A program made the position numbers and the translations under genes. Under the pieces are notes generated by a model. It ran no database searches, was not told the origin of the DNA, and saw nothing but the letters and a program-made list of their open reading frames with translations. Below, piece by piece: positions 38,497-57,282 of a stretch of DNA of 64,000 bases. How positions within the stretch are numbered: the stretch's first letter is position 1; each line of letters opens with the position of its first letter. The DNA comes from Planctomycetota bacterium (lineage in GTDB: Bacteria; Planctomycetota; Planctomycetia; Pirellulales; Lacipirellulaceae): NCBI GenBank assembly GCA_024278955.1, contig JAJRSE010000071.1, positions 62,001-126,000 on the forward strand. Direction: 5' to 3'.

Positions 38497-40599
38497 ATGA
38501 ATACCTGGATATCCACTAGAATCCGGCTCTCGCTGACGCTCTGCCTCATGCTGGCAGTTGCTGTGGGCTGTCGTTCGCGCGGTGAGTCGGACTTCGTCGC
38601 TTGCGGATCGGGCGACTGCTATCAAGCACTCGCTACCCAAATTGAATATCCCCAGGTCCAACAATGCAGTGCCACCGACGCCGACTGGGCTAGCCTCGAA
38701 CCTCTTTCGCTAGCATCCACGACCAACCCTGAGTACTGGGACATTCCGCTCGAAGAAGTCGTCCAGCTCTCGCTCACACGTTCCAAAGTGCTGCGTGACC
38801 TCGGCGGAGTCCTGCTACGATCTCCCTCGTCAGTAAGCACCTTTTGGGACCCCGCCCTACAAGAAACCGACCCTCGATTTGGCATTGATGCCGCGCTCAG
38901 CGCCTTCGATGCTCAATTCTCGACCAGCGTCTTCGGCGAAAAAAACGACAAAGCACTTAACAACGAATTCTTCGGCGGCGGCACCCGAATTTTGCAACAA
39001 GACGCTGCCGTCATTCAATCGCAGCTCACCAAACGAGCAGTCACCGGCACAGAATTCACCTTGCGGCATAACATCGACTATGACGCCAACAACGCACCGA
39101 GCAATCGATTCCCGAGCGCTTGGAACGTCAATTTTGAAACCGAATTTCGCCATCCTCTGCTCCAAGGCAGCGGCATGCAGTTCAACCGTATTGCCGGCCC
39201 CAGCACGACTCCCGGCATCTACGGCGGCGTGCTAATCGCCCGCGTCAATACCGACGTTGAACTCGCCGACTTCGAGATCGCCGTCCGCGATCACATCAGC
39301 AACATCGAAAACGCCTATTGGGACCTCTACTTTGCTTACCGCGACCTCGACGCCAAAGTCGACGCCCGCGACGCGTCACTCGAAACCTGGCGAAGAATTC
39401 ACGCTCTTTACAAAGCAGGTCGACGCGGCGGAGAAGCCGAAAAAGAAGCCCAAGCCCGCGAACAATACTATCGTTTTCAAGAAGATGTCCAAAACGCACT
39501 CAGCGGCCGACGCATCGACGGCACTCGCAACGGCAACGGAAGCGATGGTGGAACCTTCCGCGCCAACGGGGGCGTTCACGTTGCCGAGCGACAACTCCGA
39601 CGACTCATTGGCCTACCTCCGAGCGATGGCCGGCTACTGCGTCCTGCCGACGAACCTCTCTCGGCCCTTGTCCATTTTGACTGGTCTCAAGTCACCCAAG
39701 AATCGATGGTACGTCGCGCAGAACTTCGCCGACAACGCTTTGAAACTCGCCGCGCCGAACTCGAATGGATTGCCAGCAAAAACTATCTCCTGCCAAGGGT
39801 CGATGCCATCGGGCGCTATCGATGGCGAGGTTTCGGACAAGGCCTGGGCAACTCCGGCGGCAACAATCCGCGTTTCGACAACGCTTACGAAAACCTCACC
39901 GGCGGCGACTTCCAGGAATGGCAACTCGGCGTAGAACTCAGCGTGCCGATCGGCTTCCGCCGCGCCCATTCTGCAAACCGCAATTCGGAACTCAAACTCT
40001 TCCGATCGCGGGCTATTCTTCGCGAACAAGAACACCAAGTCCTACACGATCTGGCTGCCGCAGTCGCCGAAATGCAACGTGCCTATGCGGTTTCGCAAAC
40101 TACGTTCAACCGTTTAGAGGCCGCACGCCAGCAGCTCGAAGCCGTTACCGCAGCCTTTGAAGCCGACAAAGCCTCGCTCGACTTGCTGCTCGATTCCCAG
40201 CGCCGACTCGCCGACGGCAAAAGTCGCCACTTCCGCAGCATGGCCGAATACGCCGTTGCGATTAAAAACATCCACTTCACGAAGGGTTCACTCCTCGACT
40301 ACGACGGCGTCTTCCTCAGCGAAGGCGGCTGGCCCCGCCAAGCTTACAGCGATGCCCAGCGTCGAGAGAACCTCCGAGGCAAACCCCTGCCGCTGAACTA
40401 CTCCTCGGCCAAAGCTCTGCGTGTTAGCCACGGCCCCTACGATCAGCAAACCGCGCAAGAGCCCTTCGCCGACGAGCCTAAAGAACTGCCCAGCGACAAA
40501 CAAGCAGGCCCTCCACAAGCGGTCCGCCAAACCCAACACTATGTCGAAGAGCTTCTGCCGCTTCCTTTGTCGAGCATAAGCGAATCAAAGGTCCAGTAA
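38497..40599 (+). CDS. TolC-family outer-membrane efflux protein (lipoprotein)
   Basis: A 700-residue TolC/OEP-type protein, longer than usual (about 450-500). It has a lipoprotein signal (LMLAVAVGC, Cys about 25), a long N-terminal part with LRHNIDYD-type porin strands, then two helical-hairpin repeats: NIENAYWDLYFAYRDLDAK and ELRRQRFETRRAELEWIASK, and a late LLDSQRRLADGKS. It forms the outer-membrane channel for the divergent adaptor operon. ATG 38497 starts the lipoprotein signal. Confidence 0.87.
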   Translation: MNTWISTRIRLSLTLCLMLAVAVGCRSRGESDFVACGSGDCYQALATQIEYPQVQQCSATDADWASLEPLSLASTTNPEYWDIPLEEVVQLSLTRSKVLRDLGGVLLRSPSSVSTFWDPALQETDPRFGIDAALSAFDAQFSTSVFGEKNDKALNNEFFGGGTRILQQDAAVIQSQLTKRAVTGTEFTLRHNIDYDANNAPSNRFPSAWNVNFETEFRHPLLQGSGMQFNRIAGPSTTPGIYGGVLIARVNTDVELADFEIAVRDHISNIENAYWDLYFAYRDLDAKVDARDASLETWRRIHALYKAGRRGGEAEKEAQAREQYYRFQEDVQNALSGRRIDGTRNGNGSDGGTFRANGGVHVAERQLRRLIGLPPSDGRLLRPADEPLSALVHFDWSQVTQESMVRRAELRRQRFETRRAELEWIASKNYLLPRVDAIGRYRWRGFGQGLGNSGGNNPRFDNAYENLTGGDFQEWQLGVELSVPIGFRRAHSANRNSELKLFRSRAILREQEHQVLHDLAAAVAEMQRAYAVSQTTFNRLEAARQQLEAVTAAFEADKASLDLLLDSQRRLADGKSRHFRSMAEYAVAIKNIHFTKGSLLDYDGVFLSEGGWPRQAYSDAQRRENLRGKPLPLNYSSAKALRVSHGPYDQQTAQEPFADEPKELPSDKQAGPPQAVRQTQHYVEELLPLPLSSISESKVQ

Positions 40600-49147: not shown

Positions 49148-49438
49148 TCAACGACTTTTCCAGTACCCTGGCTTCCGCGCAGTATGAGCTATCGCAATGA
49201 CTACCAGATGATTCTTATGCTGGCGATAGAGCACCTGAAAAGGAAAGTTGCGCATCAGATAAAACCGATGCCGCTTATCGTATCGTGGAAACCGCTCGGG
49301 ATCCGATGCAATAAGCTGCAATGTGCGATCCAACTCCACATCAAAACGATTTGCTACTTCCACGCTTCGCTCTGCATACCATGACAAGGCTTCCGAATAC
49401 TCCAACTCAGCCGCCGAGCAAACGACTAGGTCAATCAT
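49148..49438 (-). CDS. ParE/RelE-family toxin
   Basis: A 96-residue toxin of the ParE/RelE superfamily: EYSEALSWYAERSVEVANRF, then FPRYDKRHRFYLMRNFPFQV and a late VIAIAHTARKPGYW. The final strand with H/R and Y matches the family. It overlaps the upstream antitoxin gene by 8 bp, the usual antitoxin-first order. Whether it is an mRNA interferase (RelE) or gyrase poison (ParE) cannot be read here. Confidence 0.85.
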   Translation of the reverse strand: MIDLVVCSAAELEYSEALSWYAERSVEVANRFDVELDRTLQLIASDPERFPRYDKRHRFYLMRNFPFQVLYRQHKNHLVVIAIAHTARKPGYWKSR

Positions 49439-51218: not shown

Positions 51219-51305
51219 AAATCTCAGGCGGGTGTTCCGCTCGTAGCAGGGTTTGACACTGAAACGCCAGCTGGCGACCGGAACACGTCCGTGCGACACG
51301 CACTA
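51219..51305. repeat. TAG-bordered dispersed repeat, copy A
   Basis: On the minus strand it reads TAGTGCGTGTCGCACGGACG then TGTTCC, GCCAGCTGGCG and ends in CGGGTGTTCC... Its TAG is the stop codon of the universal stress protein gene. Similar copies: 2443, 52173, 54131. Confidence 0.75.
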
Positions 51306-51740
51306 ATCTCGCAAAACCAACACGGGGCAATGGGCCAGCCTCACTACCCGCTCGGCCACCGAGCCGATCATCATTCGCATCAAACCCGTTCGTCCATGCG
51401 ACGGCAGCACGATTAGCTCGCACCCGTGGTCTTGGGCATAACGAGTGATCTCGTCCGCCGGGCTGCCAAACGCCACCTCAAACTTGACCCCATCGTACTT
51501 CGGGTCGGCAAATCGCTCTCGAAACATCTTGCCAAGATGCCCCGTCCGGTCGGTGTTGCTCACCACATTCCAGGCAACAGCCGGGTCGCCTACCGAGAAT
51601 GTTTCCATTGGCAGCGCCACATGCAGCACTGTTAGCTGGGCAGAGTCTTTGACCAACTCCAAAGCGTAATCGACCGCCTCATGGGCCTGCTCCGAAAAAT
51701 CGCTAGGGACAAGCACTGATTCGCAACTTAGCTTTACCAT
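51303..51740 (-). CDS. Universal stress protein
   Basis: A 145-residue UspA-type protein. The N-terminal strand [19 protein letters not shown] and the C-terminal ATP-binding pattern (GRTG then [18 protein letters not shown], i.e. G-2x-G-9x-G-S) indicate an ATP-binding member. It has an AAGGAG ribosome site. Its stop is the TAG that starts a dispersed repeat (51219-51305). The neighbouring BON, globin-coupled and hemerythrin genes suggest a stress/oxygen group. Confidence 0.9.
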
Positions 51741-51776
51741 GATAGTTGCTCCTTATGCGTAAAGGTTTCGGTTTTC

Positions 51777-52118
51777 CTACGGCTCTCGCCGACCAATTTC
51801 CTCCGGCATCCTGCTTTTGACACTACTAACACTACTAAGCCCCGTCGCCGACACAACATCCACTCGATTCTCGATCTGCCGAACCCCCGGAAGCCCCCGA
51901 AGCACCGTTTGCAACACCTGCTTCAGATAAAAAGAAGGCAACCGACCAGCCAGCACTAAACGCCCTTTCTCGTACCCGATGTCAATCGAATCGCAGTGAC
52001 AGCGAAAATGATCGCTGTTGTCCAACTGGACACGGGCCTGTGAAACCACTCGGTTCGCCATGACTTCTTTCTTCAATCTGGCATCCTTGGACAACGTTTC
52101 TTCCCTCAAATCCAACAT
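51777..52118 (-). CDS. BON-domain-like small protein
   Basis: A 113-residue protein. The C-terminal ~80 residues follow a BON-type pattern (IDIGYEKGRLVLAGRLPSFYLKQ, LRGLPGVRQIENRVDVV), usually linked to membrane or phospholipid binding under osmotic stress. No signal peptide is seen. The ATG at 52118 is preceded by GGGGTG; a start at 52142 would add 8 residues. It is probably transcribed with, or parallel to, the universal stress protein gene. Confidence 0.65.
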   Translation of the reverse strand: MLDLREETLSKDARLKKEVMANRVVSQARVQLDNSDHFRCHCDSIDIGYEKGRLVLAGRLPSFYLKQVLQTVLRGLPGVRQIENRVDVVSATGLSSVSSVKSRMPEEIGRREP

Positions 52119-52666
52119 GGCTATCACCCCTATCCTACGCAACTTCTAAAAACTACTGGCAACAAAGGCAAGTCTCAGGCGGGTGTTCTACCCGCAGCAC
52201 GGTTTGACACTGAAATGCCAGTTGGCGACCGGAACACGTCCGTGCGACACGCACTAGAAGAGGGAGCAAAAACCAGACCAAAAGCAAAGCGAAGACGCCT
52301 TTAGTTTTTTCATGCCCATTCGCCCTGTCGCCAAACCTTAGCGGAAGCAACTAGGCGGCCACGAATGGCAAAAGGGCCCCGTCACAAAAAACAAAAGAAC
52401 GTCTCTCGAAACTCTCGCTGGCGTGCCACCCCGCACACTGAAAGCACAATCCGCACAGCAAACGAAAAAGCTAAGCGTCCTCTCCGCGATGAGTGCTGAG
52501 AAGATTACCAACTCTCCGGCGAGCTGGTACGTTTCGCTCTTGGCGAACTTGGCGGTTCAAAATACCGACTTTGTAATTGCTCTGAATAACCAACTCAAGC
52601 CTCTTGGAGCCACCTAGCAAACGTGCTAAAAAGCAGTTGGAGAACATCCTAATCAGGTGTCGCATC
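52119..52666. other. Divergent spacer upstream of the globin-coupled activator
   Basis: About 550 bp with a TAG-bordered repeat (52173-52256) and otherwise no gene I can support. I searched by eye for -24/-12 elements toward either side and found no good match. Confidence 0.45.
52173..52256. repeat. TAG-bordered dispersed repeat, copy B
   Basis: Minus-strand TAGTGCGTGTCGCACGGACG start and CGGGTGTTC end match copy A over nearly the whole length. Here it is intergenic and not at a stop codon. Confidence 0.75.
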
Positions 52667-54133
52667 ATGACGCTGGAGCTAACTCAGAAATATGTCGAAT
52701 TGCAAAGGTACGTCGGCTGGACTGACGACGACCGGCACCGGGTTGTCTCCGTCCGAGACCTCCTGCTAGCGCACGCCGATCCTGTCATCGACGATTTTTA
52801 CGACGAAATTCAACGTCATCCCCAGACTGCCCAAATGGTTTCCGGGGGGCAGCAGCAAATCGATCGCCTTAAAACGACCCTTCGCCAATGGCTCCGGCAA
52901 CTCCTGACTGGACCCTACGATCACGATTTCGTTGCCCTCCGCTCCAACGTGGGTCGCCGCCATGTGGCAATTGGCTTAGAGCAAGTCTATGTCAGCGCCG
53001 CCCTATCGCGACTGCGTCAAGGACTCTGCCAGCAGCTGCACGACCACTGGGAAAAATCGCCTGAGGAACTACGCAGCACGATCGAATCGCTCGATAAACT
53101 CCTCGATCTTGATCTTGCTATTATCAATGACGCCTACCAGACCGAGTATTTCGCGACCCACGAAAAGCTAAGCAAAGAGAATCTCCAGCTTAGGGTAGCG
53201 CTCCAGCGTGAACAAAAGTGCTCTGAAATCGTCGGCAAGTCGGAGTCGATGCAGGAAGTTTATCGATTGATCGAACGCATCGGGCCCACCAACAAACCGA
53301 TCCTTATCCAGGGCGAAAGCGGCACCGGCAAAGAATTGGTCGTCAAATCCTTACACCAAGTCAGTATGGTTGCGGACAAACCAATTGTCATTATCAACTG
53401 TGCTGCCTTGCCTGAATCACTTCTCGAAAGCGAGCTCTTCGGACACGAAAAAGGAGCTTTCACCGGTGCCATTACCAGTAAACCAGGCCTATTTGAAGTT
53501 GCCGACCGTGGCACACTCTTTATCGACGAAATCGGTGAGTTAGCTCTTGGCCTGCAAGCAAAACTGCTCCGCGTACTAGAAGACGGTTCGCTCCGCCGCG
53601 TCGGTTCGGTAAAACAACGTCACGTTAATGTCCGGCTTATCGCCGCCACCAACCGCGACCTGGCCAAAGAAGTCGCCGAAGGACGCTTTCGCGAAGATCT
53701 GTTCTACCGAATCAACGTCCTCACCATTGTCTTACCCCCCCTGCGGGAAAGACCGGGCGACATTCCACTCCTGCTCGAACACTTTGCCGGCGAAGACTGG
53801 CAATGGGATGAAGACCTCCTCAACGTGCTCGAAAATTACAGCTGGCCTGGCAACGTGCGCCAACTGATCAACGCGATTGATCGCGCCAAAACCTTAGCCG
53901 TCGACGAACGCCTCTTGCCCCAAAACTTACCGCCCGAGTTGCTACGCAGTAGCCGAGAAGCAGCCCATCGACCTCTCAGCCAAAACGCCGACCTCGAAAC
54001 TATCAACCGCCACCACATTGCCGAAACCTTTCACCGACTTCATGGCAACAAGACTCGCACAGCCAGGGCGTTAGGAATCAGCCGGCGTACTCTCTATCGT
54101 CTGCTAGAAAAACACGCCATTGAAGCCGAATAG
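52667..54133 (+). CDS. Globin-coupled (protoglobin) sigma-54 activator
   Basis: A 488-residue bacterial enhancer-binding protein. Residues about 1-165 match the protoglobin/globin-coupled-sensor fold: YVGWTDDDRHRV, the conserved HPQTAQM, and RRHVAIGLEQVYV with proximal His99, so it should bind haem and sense O2, NO or CO. Residues about 190-420: AAA+ sigma-54 domain with GESGTGKE (216-223), GAFTGA (263-268), Walker B GTLFIDEIGEL. C-terminus: Fis-type HTH (NKTRTARALGISRRTLYRLL). ATG 52667 has AGGTG upstream; an in-frame ATG at 52604 adds 21 residues. Its stop TAG starts a dispersed repeat. A sigma-54 promoter and hemerythrin gene follow. Confidence 0.87.
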   Translation: MTLELTQKYVELQRYVGWTDDDRHRVVSVRDLLLAHADPVIDDFYDEIQRHPQTAQMVSGGQQQIDRLKTTLRQWLRQLLTGPYDHDFVALRSNVGRRHVAIGLEQVYVSAALSRLRQGLCQQLHDHWEKSPEELRSTIESLDKLLDLDLAIINDAYQTEYFATHEKLSKENLQLRVALQREQKCSEIVGKSESMQEVYRLIERIGPTNKPILIQGESGTGKELVVKSLHQVSMVADKPIVIINCAALPESLLESELFGHEKGAFTGAITSKPGLFEVADRGTLFIDEIGELALGLQAKLLRVLEDGSLRRVGSVKQRHVNVRLIAATNRDLAKEVAEGRFREDLFYRINVLTIVLPPLRERPGDIPLLLEHFAGEDWQWDEDLLNVLENYSWPGNVRQLINAIDRAKTLAVDERLLPQNLPPELLRSSREAAHRPLSQNADLETINRHHIAETFHRLHGNKTRTARALGISRRTLYRLLEKHAIEAE

Positions 54134-54195
54134 TGCGTGTCGCCCGGACGTGTTCCAGCCGCCGCACTCGCTTTCCAGCGTCAAACCGTGCGGTT
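54131..54195 (+). repeat. TAG-bordered dispersed repeat, copy C
   Basis: TAGTGCGTGTCGCCCGGACG then TGTTCC; its TAG is the stop codon of the globin-coupled activator. The distal half is more diverged than copies A and B. Confidence 0.65.
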
Positions 54196-54302
54196 TGAAT
54201 CAAAACTGTGCGAACCTGCACATTTTGAGTGCCTGCTATCTGAAATCGAGTTCTCAAAAAAACCGTGGCGAGAACAAGCTCAGCGATTGCAATTCCAGGG
54301 TT

Positions 54303-54320
54303 CTCTGAACGGGTTCAGAG
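54303..54320 (+). promoter_or_regulatory. Perfect dyad, possible activator site
   Basis: CTCTGAAC-GG-GTTCAGAG: 8-bp perfect inverted repeat with a 2-bp centre. It is centred about 72 bp upstream of the start of transcription predicted from the sigma-54 element, a normal place for an enhancer-binding protein. It may also be a part of the neighbouring repeat. Confidence 0.4.
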
Positions 54321-54356
54321 GAACACCTCTTCACGCAGTTACCACCGAGAAGACCC

Positions 54357-54372
54357 TGGCACCCCGTTTGCA
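54357..54372 (+). promoter_or_regulatory. Sigma-54 (-24/-12) promoter of the hemerythrin gene
   Basis: TGGCAC-CCCGT-TTGCA: an exact match to the consensus TGGCAC-N5-TTGCW. Transcription would start near 54383, leaving a leader of about 258 bases before the hemerythrin ATG at 54641. The only downstream gene on this strand is the hemerythrin gene. Confidence 0.7.
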
Positions 54373-54402
54373 CAACGGACTTACGTACTTATAAGGCTAG
54401 GT

Positions 54403-54425
54403 TGAACCACGAAGGCACAACGAAA
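54403..54425. repeat. GAACCACGAAGGCACAACG repeat fragment
   Basis: Short dispersed unit similar to the one at 28852; it lies in the predicted leader of the hemerythrin transcript. Confidence 0.5.
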
Positions 54426-54640
54426 TGGAGCTAGAAATATTGGAGTTTCAACGATTGCTCCTTGATCAGCAGGTTGACATGTTGTTTCCTGAAAAATGCC
54501 TACTCAACAAAAACACTATTTCGTATTTTGTTTGTCCTGGTTTTTTACTAGGGCGTCGTGTCGTTGTGTTTCCAACGACTTAGCGCTTTAGTAATTAGCC
54601 ATTATCGCTTTTCTTCAAAAATCGTATCGGAGCCCCAATC

Positions 54641-55087
54641 ATGTCTGCAAGCGACACTCAAACACGCCCCAACAGCACAATTGCTCGCCAGCACGCTCAA
54701 ATTGAGTCCTTAGTCGATGCGCTCACAAGCCGGTTCGACGGGGAAAAAAAGGCCACTCGCAACTTAGTCTCGCTGCTGAATTCTCTTGCAGCACACTTAG
54801 AAATGCATTTTGAATTGGAAGAAGAGGACGAGTACTTCGGTTACATTCTCACTCGCTCGCCACATCTCTCCGAACGCGTCGATCGCTTGCTGCACCAACA
54901 CGAAATGCTCAAAACAAACGTCGACGACCTCGTCGACTTAGCTCGACAAGCTTTTGAGCAAAACAGCGGTACCGCCGAGCTGGCTTCCATGTTCGCAAAA
55001 TTCCGATCCCTGTTACTAGAACACGAAAAAAAAGAAATCGATCTCCTCCAAGAAGCATTCAATCGGGACCTCGGCACCGGCGACTGA
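54641..55087 (+). CDS. Hemerythrin (HHE) domain protein
   Basis: A 148-residue four-helix hemerythrin-like protein. Candidate di-iron ligands include H18, H52, H56, E60, H87 and H128 (ARQHAQ; HLEMHFELEEEDE; HQHEML; LEHEKKEID). Such proteins bind O2, NO or iron. The -24/-12 promoter upstream and the globin-coupled sigma-54 activator before it make regulation by a gas signal likely (inference). No ribosome site is strong. Confidence 0.85.
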   Translation: MSASDTQTRPNSTIARQHAQIESLVDALTSRFDGEKKATRNLVSLLNSLAAHLEMHFELEEEDEYFGYILTRSPHLSERVDRLLHQHEMLKTNVDDLVDLARQAFEQNSGTAELASMFAKFRSLLLEHEKKEIDLLQEAFNRDLGTGD

Positions 55088-56642: not shown

Positions 56643-56945
56643 ATGGTTCGCGCCGCGATCGAAATCCCTGAAGATAAAATTACGGATTTTTGTCTTCGGA
56701 ATCACATAACCAAGATGGCGCTATTTGGTTCGGTATTGCGTAATGATTTTACTTCGAATAGCGATGTCGATGTTCTCGTTGAGTTTCATCCGGAGCATGT
56801 TCCGGGGCTGTATTTTTTTTCGATTCAGGACGAACTTTCCGATATCCTAAGGCGAAAGGTCGACTTAGTAACATTTAGGGGATTGAGCAAATACATCCGT
56901 AAGCGCGTCATGGAAGAGGCGAAGACCGTTTATGTCAGAGCATGA
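56643..56945 (+). CDS. mntA: MntA-type minimal nucleotidyltransferase antitoxin
   Basis: A 100-residue MNT-fold protein with GSx10DxD (G29-S30 ... D41-V-D43 in FGSVLRNDFTSNSDVDV) and a C-terminal RKRVMEEA. MntA neutralises its partner by AMPylating HepT. It overlaps hepT by 14 bp (56932). Together they form a type VII-like toxin-antitoxin pair. Confidence 0.87.
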   Translation: MVRAAIEIPEDKITDFCLRNHITKMALFGSVLRNDFTSNSDVDVLVEFHPEHVPGLYFFSIQDELSDILRRKVDLVTFRGLSKYIRKRVMEEAKTVYVRA

Positions 56946-57282
56946 CGACGACATTTCGCTGAGGCAGATACTCGACCATGCTCTTGAAGCTGTGAAGTTG
57001 GTTCAAGGCCATACCGAGGCCTCTTTGTCCGAAGACCGCCTTAGGCATTTGGCGGTCACTAGGTTGTTGACTATCGTAGGCGAGGCCGCGACGCGACTTT
57101 CGTCAGAACGTAGGGGAACACTTTCCCATATTCCTTGGCGACAAATCATTGGTCTAAGAAATATCTTGATTCACATGTATCATGATATCGATGATTCCAC
57201 ACTGTGGCAGATACTGACAAATGATTTGCCCAAGTTAATCTACGAAATAGAGAAGCTGGATCTTCCAGGAGAATTAAGTTAG
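56932..57282 (+). CDS. hepT: HepT-type HEPN ribonuclease toxin
   Basis: A 116-residue HEPN (DUF86) protein with the RNase motif R76-x4-H81 and Tyr83 (RNILIHMY), the AMPylation target in known HepT. Helical throughout. It shares a transcript with mntA and lies 2 bp before the response regulator. Confidence 0.87.
   Translation: MSEHDDDISLRQILDHALEAVKLVQGHTEASLSEDRLRHLAVTRLLTIVGEAATRLSSERRGTLSHIPWRQIIGLRNILIHMYHDIDDSTLWQILTNDLPKLIYEIEKLDLPGELS

Follow-up and report, generated by a model that had tools for sequence, protein, structure and literature searches.

We analysed a 64,000-nucleotide stretch of contig JAJRSE010000071.1 (hereafter the window) from a planctomycete genome of the family Lacipirellulaceae, in which a gene encoding a globin fused to a sigma-54-dependent transcription activator is followed by a hemerythrin gene. 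An earlier note on this DNA, made from its letters, had proposed that sensor, promoter and target stand together here, and this adjacency was borne out at 52667-55087, where we identified the following features:

52667..54133, plus strand: fused globin-coupled sigma-54 activator of 488 amino acids (aa), identified by its Pfam domains and by nine fused relatives elsewhere
52697..53149, plus strand: protoglobin sensor domain of the activator (residues 11-161; Pfam), with the H99 codon at 52961-52963
53228..53728, plus strand: AAA+ sigma-54 interaction domain (Pfam), with GAFTGA at 53453-53470
53993..54112, plus strand: Fis-type HTH_8 DNA-binding domain (Pfam)
54206..54223, no strand assigned: candidate hemerythrin enhancer CTGTGCGAACCTGCACAT, 133 base pairs (bp) upstream of the -24 element
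54303..54320, no strand assigned: dyad CTCTGAAC-GG-GTTCAGAG, present and not conserved
54357-54372, plus strand: sigma-54 promoter of the hemerythrin gene, TGGCAC-CCCGT-TTGCA, the top score in the window
54641..55087, plus strand: hemerythrin HHE-domain protein of 148 aa (PF01814, 39.4 bits, cut-off 25.3)

In the activator, Pfam matched Protoglobin (PF11563; 131.6 bits, cut-off 25), Sigma54_activat (232.5 bits, cut-off 20.2) and, also above their cut-offs, AAA_lid_14 and HTH_8 (PF02954; 35.7 bits, cut-off 22). No Response_reg or other receiver domain was among the nine Pfam families matched, and the protoglobin occupies the position of the receiver. The relatives are consistent with a start at 52667 and inconsistent with the TTG at 52604 given in the list of open reading frames. 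H99, Y45, Walker A and GAFTGA were unchanged in all ten fused proteins, the window's included, upholding the earlier description of a protoglobin with H99, an AAA+ domain with GAFTGA and a Fis-type helix-turn-helix (HTH). The linker after the globin is also kept among the fused proteins (L168, E171, N172 and R176) and, judged by eye, looks like that of related NtrC regulators; the recognition region of the HTH is almost the same in the NtrC regulators of the activator's group. The protein therefore combines the marks of a globin-coupled sensor (an N-terminal protoglobin joined to an output, with the proximal histidine present) with those of a sigma-54 enhancer-binding protein (an AAA+ domain with Walker A and GAFTGA, and a C-terminal Fis-type HTH). 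Its setting agrees with such a role, as rpoN was found in the window's genome and a -24/-12 element lies at the target. The NorR equivalog cut-off was missed (321.8 versus 476 bits).

The nearest solved globin is that of AfGcHK (5ohe; E = 3.9e-27), which aligned without gaps over residues 9-158, with H99 and Y45 carrying identical numbers in the two proteins. In AfGcHK we take these to be haem-site residues, H99 being the presumed proximal haem ligand. An AlphaFold model of the activator, built from seven sequences, had a mean pLDDT of 52.7 and was usable mainly in the globin part; there, the modelled globin superimposed on 5ohe with a TM score of 0.88-0.91 by target length, and its long H helix spans residues 132-165. 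The globin of the activator is thus nearest to AfGcHK in both sequence and fold.

The hemerythrin retains the ligand-type residues H56, E60, H87, H128 and E132 in 11 of 11 proteins and H18 in 8 of 11. It scored below the cut-offs of bacteriohemerythrin NF033749 (25.8 versus 84 bits) and DnrN (22.8 versus 300 bits), and its sequence had no match in the PDB. A fold search of the PDB returned a generic four-helix bundle and nothing at E ≤ 0.001, the HHE protein 6q09 standing at rank 19 with E = 0.43; the fold is therefore of little help. A 52-codon reading frame in the leader (54425-54583) was rejected as spurious, its best tblastn match beyond its own site among the loci examined having E = 0.11.

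The -24/-12 promoter that the earlier note had seen before this gene was found exactly at 54357-54372. Scored with a matrix approximated from published compilations, it tops the sigma-54 elements of the window (18.2; runner-up 14.3). With at most one mismatch, TGGCAYNNNNNTTGCW has a single match in the 64 kb, at 54357, a count that is no evidence because shuffled sequences averaged four at the same tolerance. Recurrence is more telling: an element scoring >11 within 700 bp upstream was present in 20 of 30 hemerythrin loci drawn from a search of 147 genomes, and in all nine best hemerythrin matches, that is, the window's own (L073) and its eight closest homologues, each in another genome (L074-L081). 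The chance of nine out of nine would be about 1e-15 if the loci were independent, a figure overstated by the relatedness of the genomes and the inclusion of the window's own. Two of these eight hemerythrins (G010 and G004) are unlinked to an activator and still carry the element. Overall, a hemerythrin lies near the activator in six of the ten fused loci, including this one.

Candidate enhancers were sought de novo as dyads in 28 regions, comprising 18 hemerythrin promoter regions (the 20 with a promoter minus L082 and L087) and 10 regions upstream of activators. At a gap of 6, GTGCG was found in 15 of the 28 regions and TGTGC in 14, against a maximum of 7 in 60 shuffles, although the regions are partly related and the count of 15 overstates their independence. 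A matrix was then made from nine sites in six genomes without a globin match (G009, G012, G017, G019, G029 and G031), with significance set at p ≤ 0.0033 over 300 shuffles. Applied to the fused loci, it placed the element, TGTGC-N6-GCACA, in seven of the ten divergent regions and three of the six regions before hemerythrin; the two unlinked hemerythrins also had sites (p = 0.017 and 0). The window's 54206-54223 is the top such site in the window, was equalled in none of 300 shuffles, and ranks near the 99.9th percentile among 220-bp stretches of the genome's loci. The second-best enhancer-like site in the window is CTATGCGGTTTCGCAAAC at 40083-40100 (16.1).

Genome-wide, the strict sigma-54 pattern TGGCAYNNNNNTTGC occurred at 48 sites, compared with 12 for the reversed control. 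When all 48 were scored for an enhancer within 220 bp upstream, only the hemerythrin promoter had one (17.2; next-best site 5.6). This favours the proposal of the earlier note that the locus is a self-contained switch, which we regard as likely and unproved because an enhancer-like palindrome stands 220 bp from the strict site at C124:115828. That palindrome, a perfect TGTGCGAAAATGCACA scoring 20.7 (L113; G000:C124:115591-115606), lies upstream of a Rieske-like gene, and the sigma-54 string 220 bp downstream of it falls inside an apparent Rieske-type reading frame. It may belong to the globin activator or to another regulator. As far as the sequences allow, the case for the enhancer is carried by the position and recurrence of the palindrome, not by its rarity.

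On the other side of the activator lies a divergent pair of genes with its own candidate elements:

52421..52438, no strand assigned: second candidate enhancer GCGTGCCACCCCGCACAC, in the stretch separating the activator from the divergent BON gene, equalled in none of 300 shuffles
52346..52361, minus strand: candidate sigma-54 promoter of BON-USP, TGGCCG-CCTAG-TTGCT, score 7.8, 59 bp from the enhancer
51777..52142, minus strand: BON-like gene, probable second target (BON 23.7 bits, below the Pfam cut-off of 27)
51303..51740, minus strand: universal stress protein (USP) gene (PF00582, 114.1 bits), 36 bp after the BON gene

In the nine other fused loci, sigma-54 elements upstream of the activator on the strand of this BON promoter score 10.1-15.9, and the enhancer lies 52-65 bp from the divergent promoter in six of the nine. 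A BON relative occupies the divergent position in six of the nine loci and a USP relative is present in five. In L036, L037, L041, L042 and L043, the BON gene is followed by a CBS-domain gene (all five genes scanned encode CBS proteins), which the window's operon lacks (51740-51777). Comparable arrangements were seen in G009, with enhancer and sigma-54 elements before the BON gene and between the NtrC regulator and hemerythrin, and in G029, with both elements between the USP gene and hemerythrin. Judged from these elements and their order, the BON-USP operon is a probable second target of the activator.

Of 43 family genomes searched with the globin plus the beginning of the AAA+ domain as the query, 10 (the window's own included) contain the fused form; they represent 3 of 14 genera. 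A globin-linker profile run against genome_contigs gave 84 relatives, of which 80 were kept and sorted by a loose script test into 6 fused, 67 with a kinase-like H box and 7 other, in keeping with the view that a direct sigma-54 output is uncommon. Bythopirellula polymerisocia Pla144 carries one fused locus (L149). In a phylum sample of 392 genomes, the fused form was found only in the window's own, a weak negative with six candidates per genome scored, and the globin-linker profile gave 71 pattern matches and no relatives among viral contigs. The whole activator matched 2497 plasmid records, in 3 of which one place spanned 80% or more of the query; among the 15 matches listed, all sigma-54 regulators or unannotated, none reaches the globin start, the matches beginning at residue 83 or later. 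The genome encodes a second protoglobin, a 204-aa open frame (L002; G000:C143:1118-1648) that is possibly single-domain.

The nearest non-fused AAA+/HTH relatives open with receiver-like sequence (judged by eye; the start of L134 is hidden by a run-on frame), and the one scanned, from G031, contains Response_reg, Sigma54_activat and HTH_8. Many of these regulators are encoded near globin histidine kinases, of which the one scanned (L058) contains Protoglobin, PAS, HisKA and HATPase. The ten fused proteins formed a single clade (95/83) when 44 AAA+HTH segments were placed in a tree, and this clade joined seven same-family regulators near globin kinases at 92/88. In a tree of 40 globin domains, from which the partial row L069 was left out, the fused proteins again formed a single clade (95/95), placed among kinase globins. 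Both trees were arbitrarily rooted and several inner nodes did not resolve. The simplest reading of these trees would be one fusion event in which the kinase and the receiver were lost, its direction being unproved.

Six genomes without a globin match (G019, G009, G017, G029, G031 and G012; L235-L242) share the enhancer and sigma-54 elements, which sit at or near a hemerythrin or its regulator. An NtrC regulator of a sister clade adjoins the hemerythrin in G009, G019 and G031, with a PAS kinase nearby in G009. Across these genomes, the same regulon may have come under a different sensor.

Elsewhere in the window, 56643-57282 encodes a nucleotidyltransferase-domain protein followed by a 116-aa HEPN-like protein (by eye), a possible MNT/HEPN pair, and 49148-49438 encodes a 96-aa protein resembling a ParE/RelE-type toxin (by eye).

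We consider it probable, at roughly 0.68, that the activator works as a one-component sigma-54 switch gated by a haem globin, that it derives from a two-component system of globin kinase and NtrC regulator, and that its targets are the hemerythrin and BON-USP. The domains, the recurrent promoter and enhancer elements, the gene order, the single clade and the relationship to kinase-linked regulators are shown here; we infer haem binding, the ligand and its polarity, DNA binding, and the fusion event with its direction. In NtrC-type regulators, a receiver dimer and linker helix restrain the AAA+ domain. Here, a GcHK/NmpU-type protoglobin, presumably dimeric, would replace the receiver domain, and its ligand state would reach the AAA+ ring by way of the long H helix and linker, ligand binding shifting the globin dimer and permitting ring assembly. 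The active protein would bind the TGTGC-N6-GCACA-type enhancers at 54206 and 52421, and GAFTGA and ATP would open the sigma-54 polymerase at the 54357 hemerythrin promoter and at the divergent BON-USP operon. The fusion would have arisen once, within one planctomycete family, as kinase and receiver were lost.

The most likely signal, by analogy, is O2 loss, with the deoxy form activating; we expect this polarity because the Nmp system of Myxococcus xanthus is induced by hypoxia. The gene content, BON-CBS-USP plus hemerythrin, resembles the NmpR regulon. The fuller scenario, in which a globin kinase and its NtrC partner collapsed into one oxygen-gated sigma-54 activator and the enhancer and hypoxia regulon (hemerythrin, BON-CBS-USP) were kept, seems to us to have slightly better than even odds.

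Several observations weigh against the switch as described. Outside its globin part the model of the whole protein is of poor quality, and the trees combine arbitrary roots with moderate support at key nodes. At a stricter threshold, enhancer and sigma-54 elements were paired at only one (L071) of 16 globin-kinase loci, so that use of the enhancer by the supposed two-component ancestor is a conjecture. Within the fused loci, significant matrix sites were missing from the divergent regions of L036, L043 and L044 (3 of 10) and from the hemerythrin regions of L042, L043 and L044 (3 of 6); a weak site (6.8) appears at the correct spacing in L036 once the region is extended. The exact palindrome GTGC-N6-GCAC occurs three times in the window against 1.2 expected, a count reached in 13 of 100 shuffles. 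Across the genome, it occurs 15 times versus 9 for its reversed control, or 36 versus 53 with one mismatch, and with no useful excess over the control the palindrome alone cannot list a regulon. The candidate BON promoter of the window has a weak score and was picked by eye once the relatives' spacing was known. Ten of the 30 hemerythrin loci lack a sigma-54 element by the matrix used. No hemerythrin lies nearby in 4 of the 10 fused loci, and of these four genomes one has no hemerythrin match and another only a distant one. Finally, the NmpR site, GCGCA-N5-TGCGC, differs from the window's TGTGC-N6-GCACA.

The main rival concerns the ligand. The switch might sense nitric oxide (NO) in place of oxygen, acting as a globin counterpart of NorR, and the hemerythrin-like protein that it induces would then serve in repair or in a function related to NO. 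NO genes are activated by NorR, itself a one-component sigma-54 protein, and some globin-coupled sensors, such as AvGReg, react with NO (PMC3820574, in part). The hemerythrin also shows an H-HxxxE-H-HxxxE pattern and a weak match to DnrN, one that is far from that model's cut-off. Because AfGcHK, to which the sensor is nearest, is active when O2 is present, and the USP and CBS neighbours match the NmpR hypoxia regulon (PMC11841059, in part), we regard NO as an unlikely signal. Receiver domains in the other members of the activator's AAA+/HTH group raise the thought that the protein answers, additionally or mainly, to a protein partner or kinase and that its globin is a structural relic. Such a relic would need neither H99 nor Y45, so their invariance in the ten fused proteins counts against it, as does the lack of a receiver among the Pfam families matched, and we give this explanation very little credence.

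Two further alternatives concern the DNA targets. The dyad at 54303-54320, which the earlier note had singled out, could be the true site of the activator or that of a second regulator; its perfect 8-bp arms are indeed present, between the enhancer and the promoter, the candidate enhancer ending 79 bp upstream. The conservation that the note had set as a test failed, however: an exact search of 114 loci recovered only five copies, all of this same site, and in eight other hemerythrin upstream regions the best matches still had 6-7 of 16 arm positions wrong. The window contains 43 perfect 8-bp dyads whose loop is no longer than 10, this one among them, and its stretch scores -7.8 with the family enhancer matrix. 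Given its non-conservation we reject it as the activator's site, and a regulatory role of either kind is highly improbable. The neighbourhood itself could mislead, the activator mainly controlling other genes, as the four fused loci without a nearby hemerythrin and the strong palindrome upstream of the Rieske-like gene might suggest. Against this, both unlinked close hemerythrins keep sigma-54 elements and enhancer-like sites, and none of the other 47 strict sigma-54 sites has an enhancer within 220 bp; we consider it a slim prospect.

If the globin-gated switch is real, it would be the first sensor, within the literature covered, in which a globin directly controls the sigma-54 polymerase, a single soluble protein that drives a transcription switch with ATP in response to a gas signal. 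It would provide a minimal system for studying the gating of an AAA+ ring by a globin dimer and would predict a concrete low-oxygen regulon in planctomycetes. As split and fused forms coexist in one family with similar neighbours, two- and one-component signalling could be compared side by side.

HemAT, YddV/DosC and BpeGReg share with the activator an N-terminal sensor globin joined to an output, which in those proteins is a chemotaxis or cyclic-di-GMP domain. In AlphaFold models of HemAT and YddV, globin and output are connected by one long helix (PMC10882959, in part). AfGcHK, from Anaeromyxobacter, is likened to our protein by its globin, with H99 and Y45 at the same numbers, but has a kinase output in place of the AAA+ activator. 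NorR is likewise a single gas-sensing protein that activates sigma-54 promoters, but it senses through an iron centre housed in a PAS-GAF domain (PMC3820574, in part) and not through a protoglobin. A close parallel in function is the Nmp system. There, a relay that begins with the globin kinase NmpU leads to NmpR, which activates the sigma-54 promoters of CBS, USP, cbb3 oxidase and hemN-hemerythrin genes; hypoxia induces the CBS operon of this system in an NmpR-dependent way (PMC11841059, in part). NmpRSTU and the window share a protoglobin sensor, an NtrC-type sigma-54 output with HTH_8 and overlapping targets (hemerythrin, USP and CBS), and the Nmp regulator genes are under their own enhancer, as is the NtrC gene of G009. 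Nmp is a multi-protein phosphorelay, whereas the window's protein unites sensor and activator and has no receiver. Predicted sigma-54 regulons of planctomycetes are also rich in USP (PMC12316311, in part). The comparison further drew on parts of PMC6211767, PMC2556348, PMC9239204, PMC2754498, PMC1457004 and PMC13401364. Among the PMC matches listed, no title or abstract opening described a globin-sigma-54 fusion, which does not establish its absence from print. Sensor, activator type and regulon type are each already known; their combination in a single protein stands in none of those matches.

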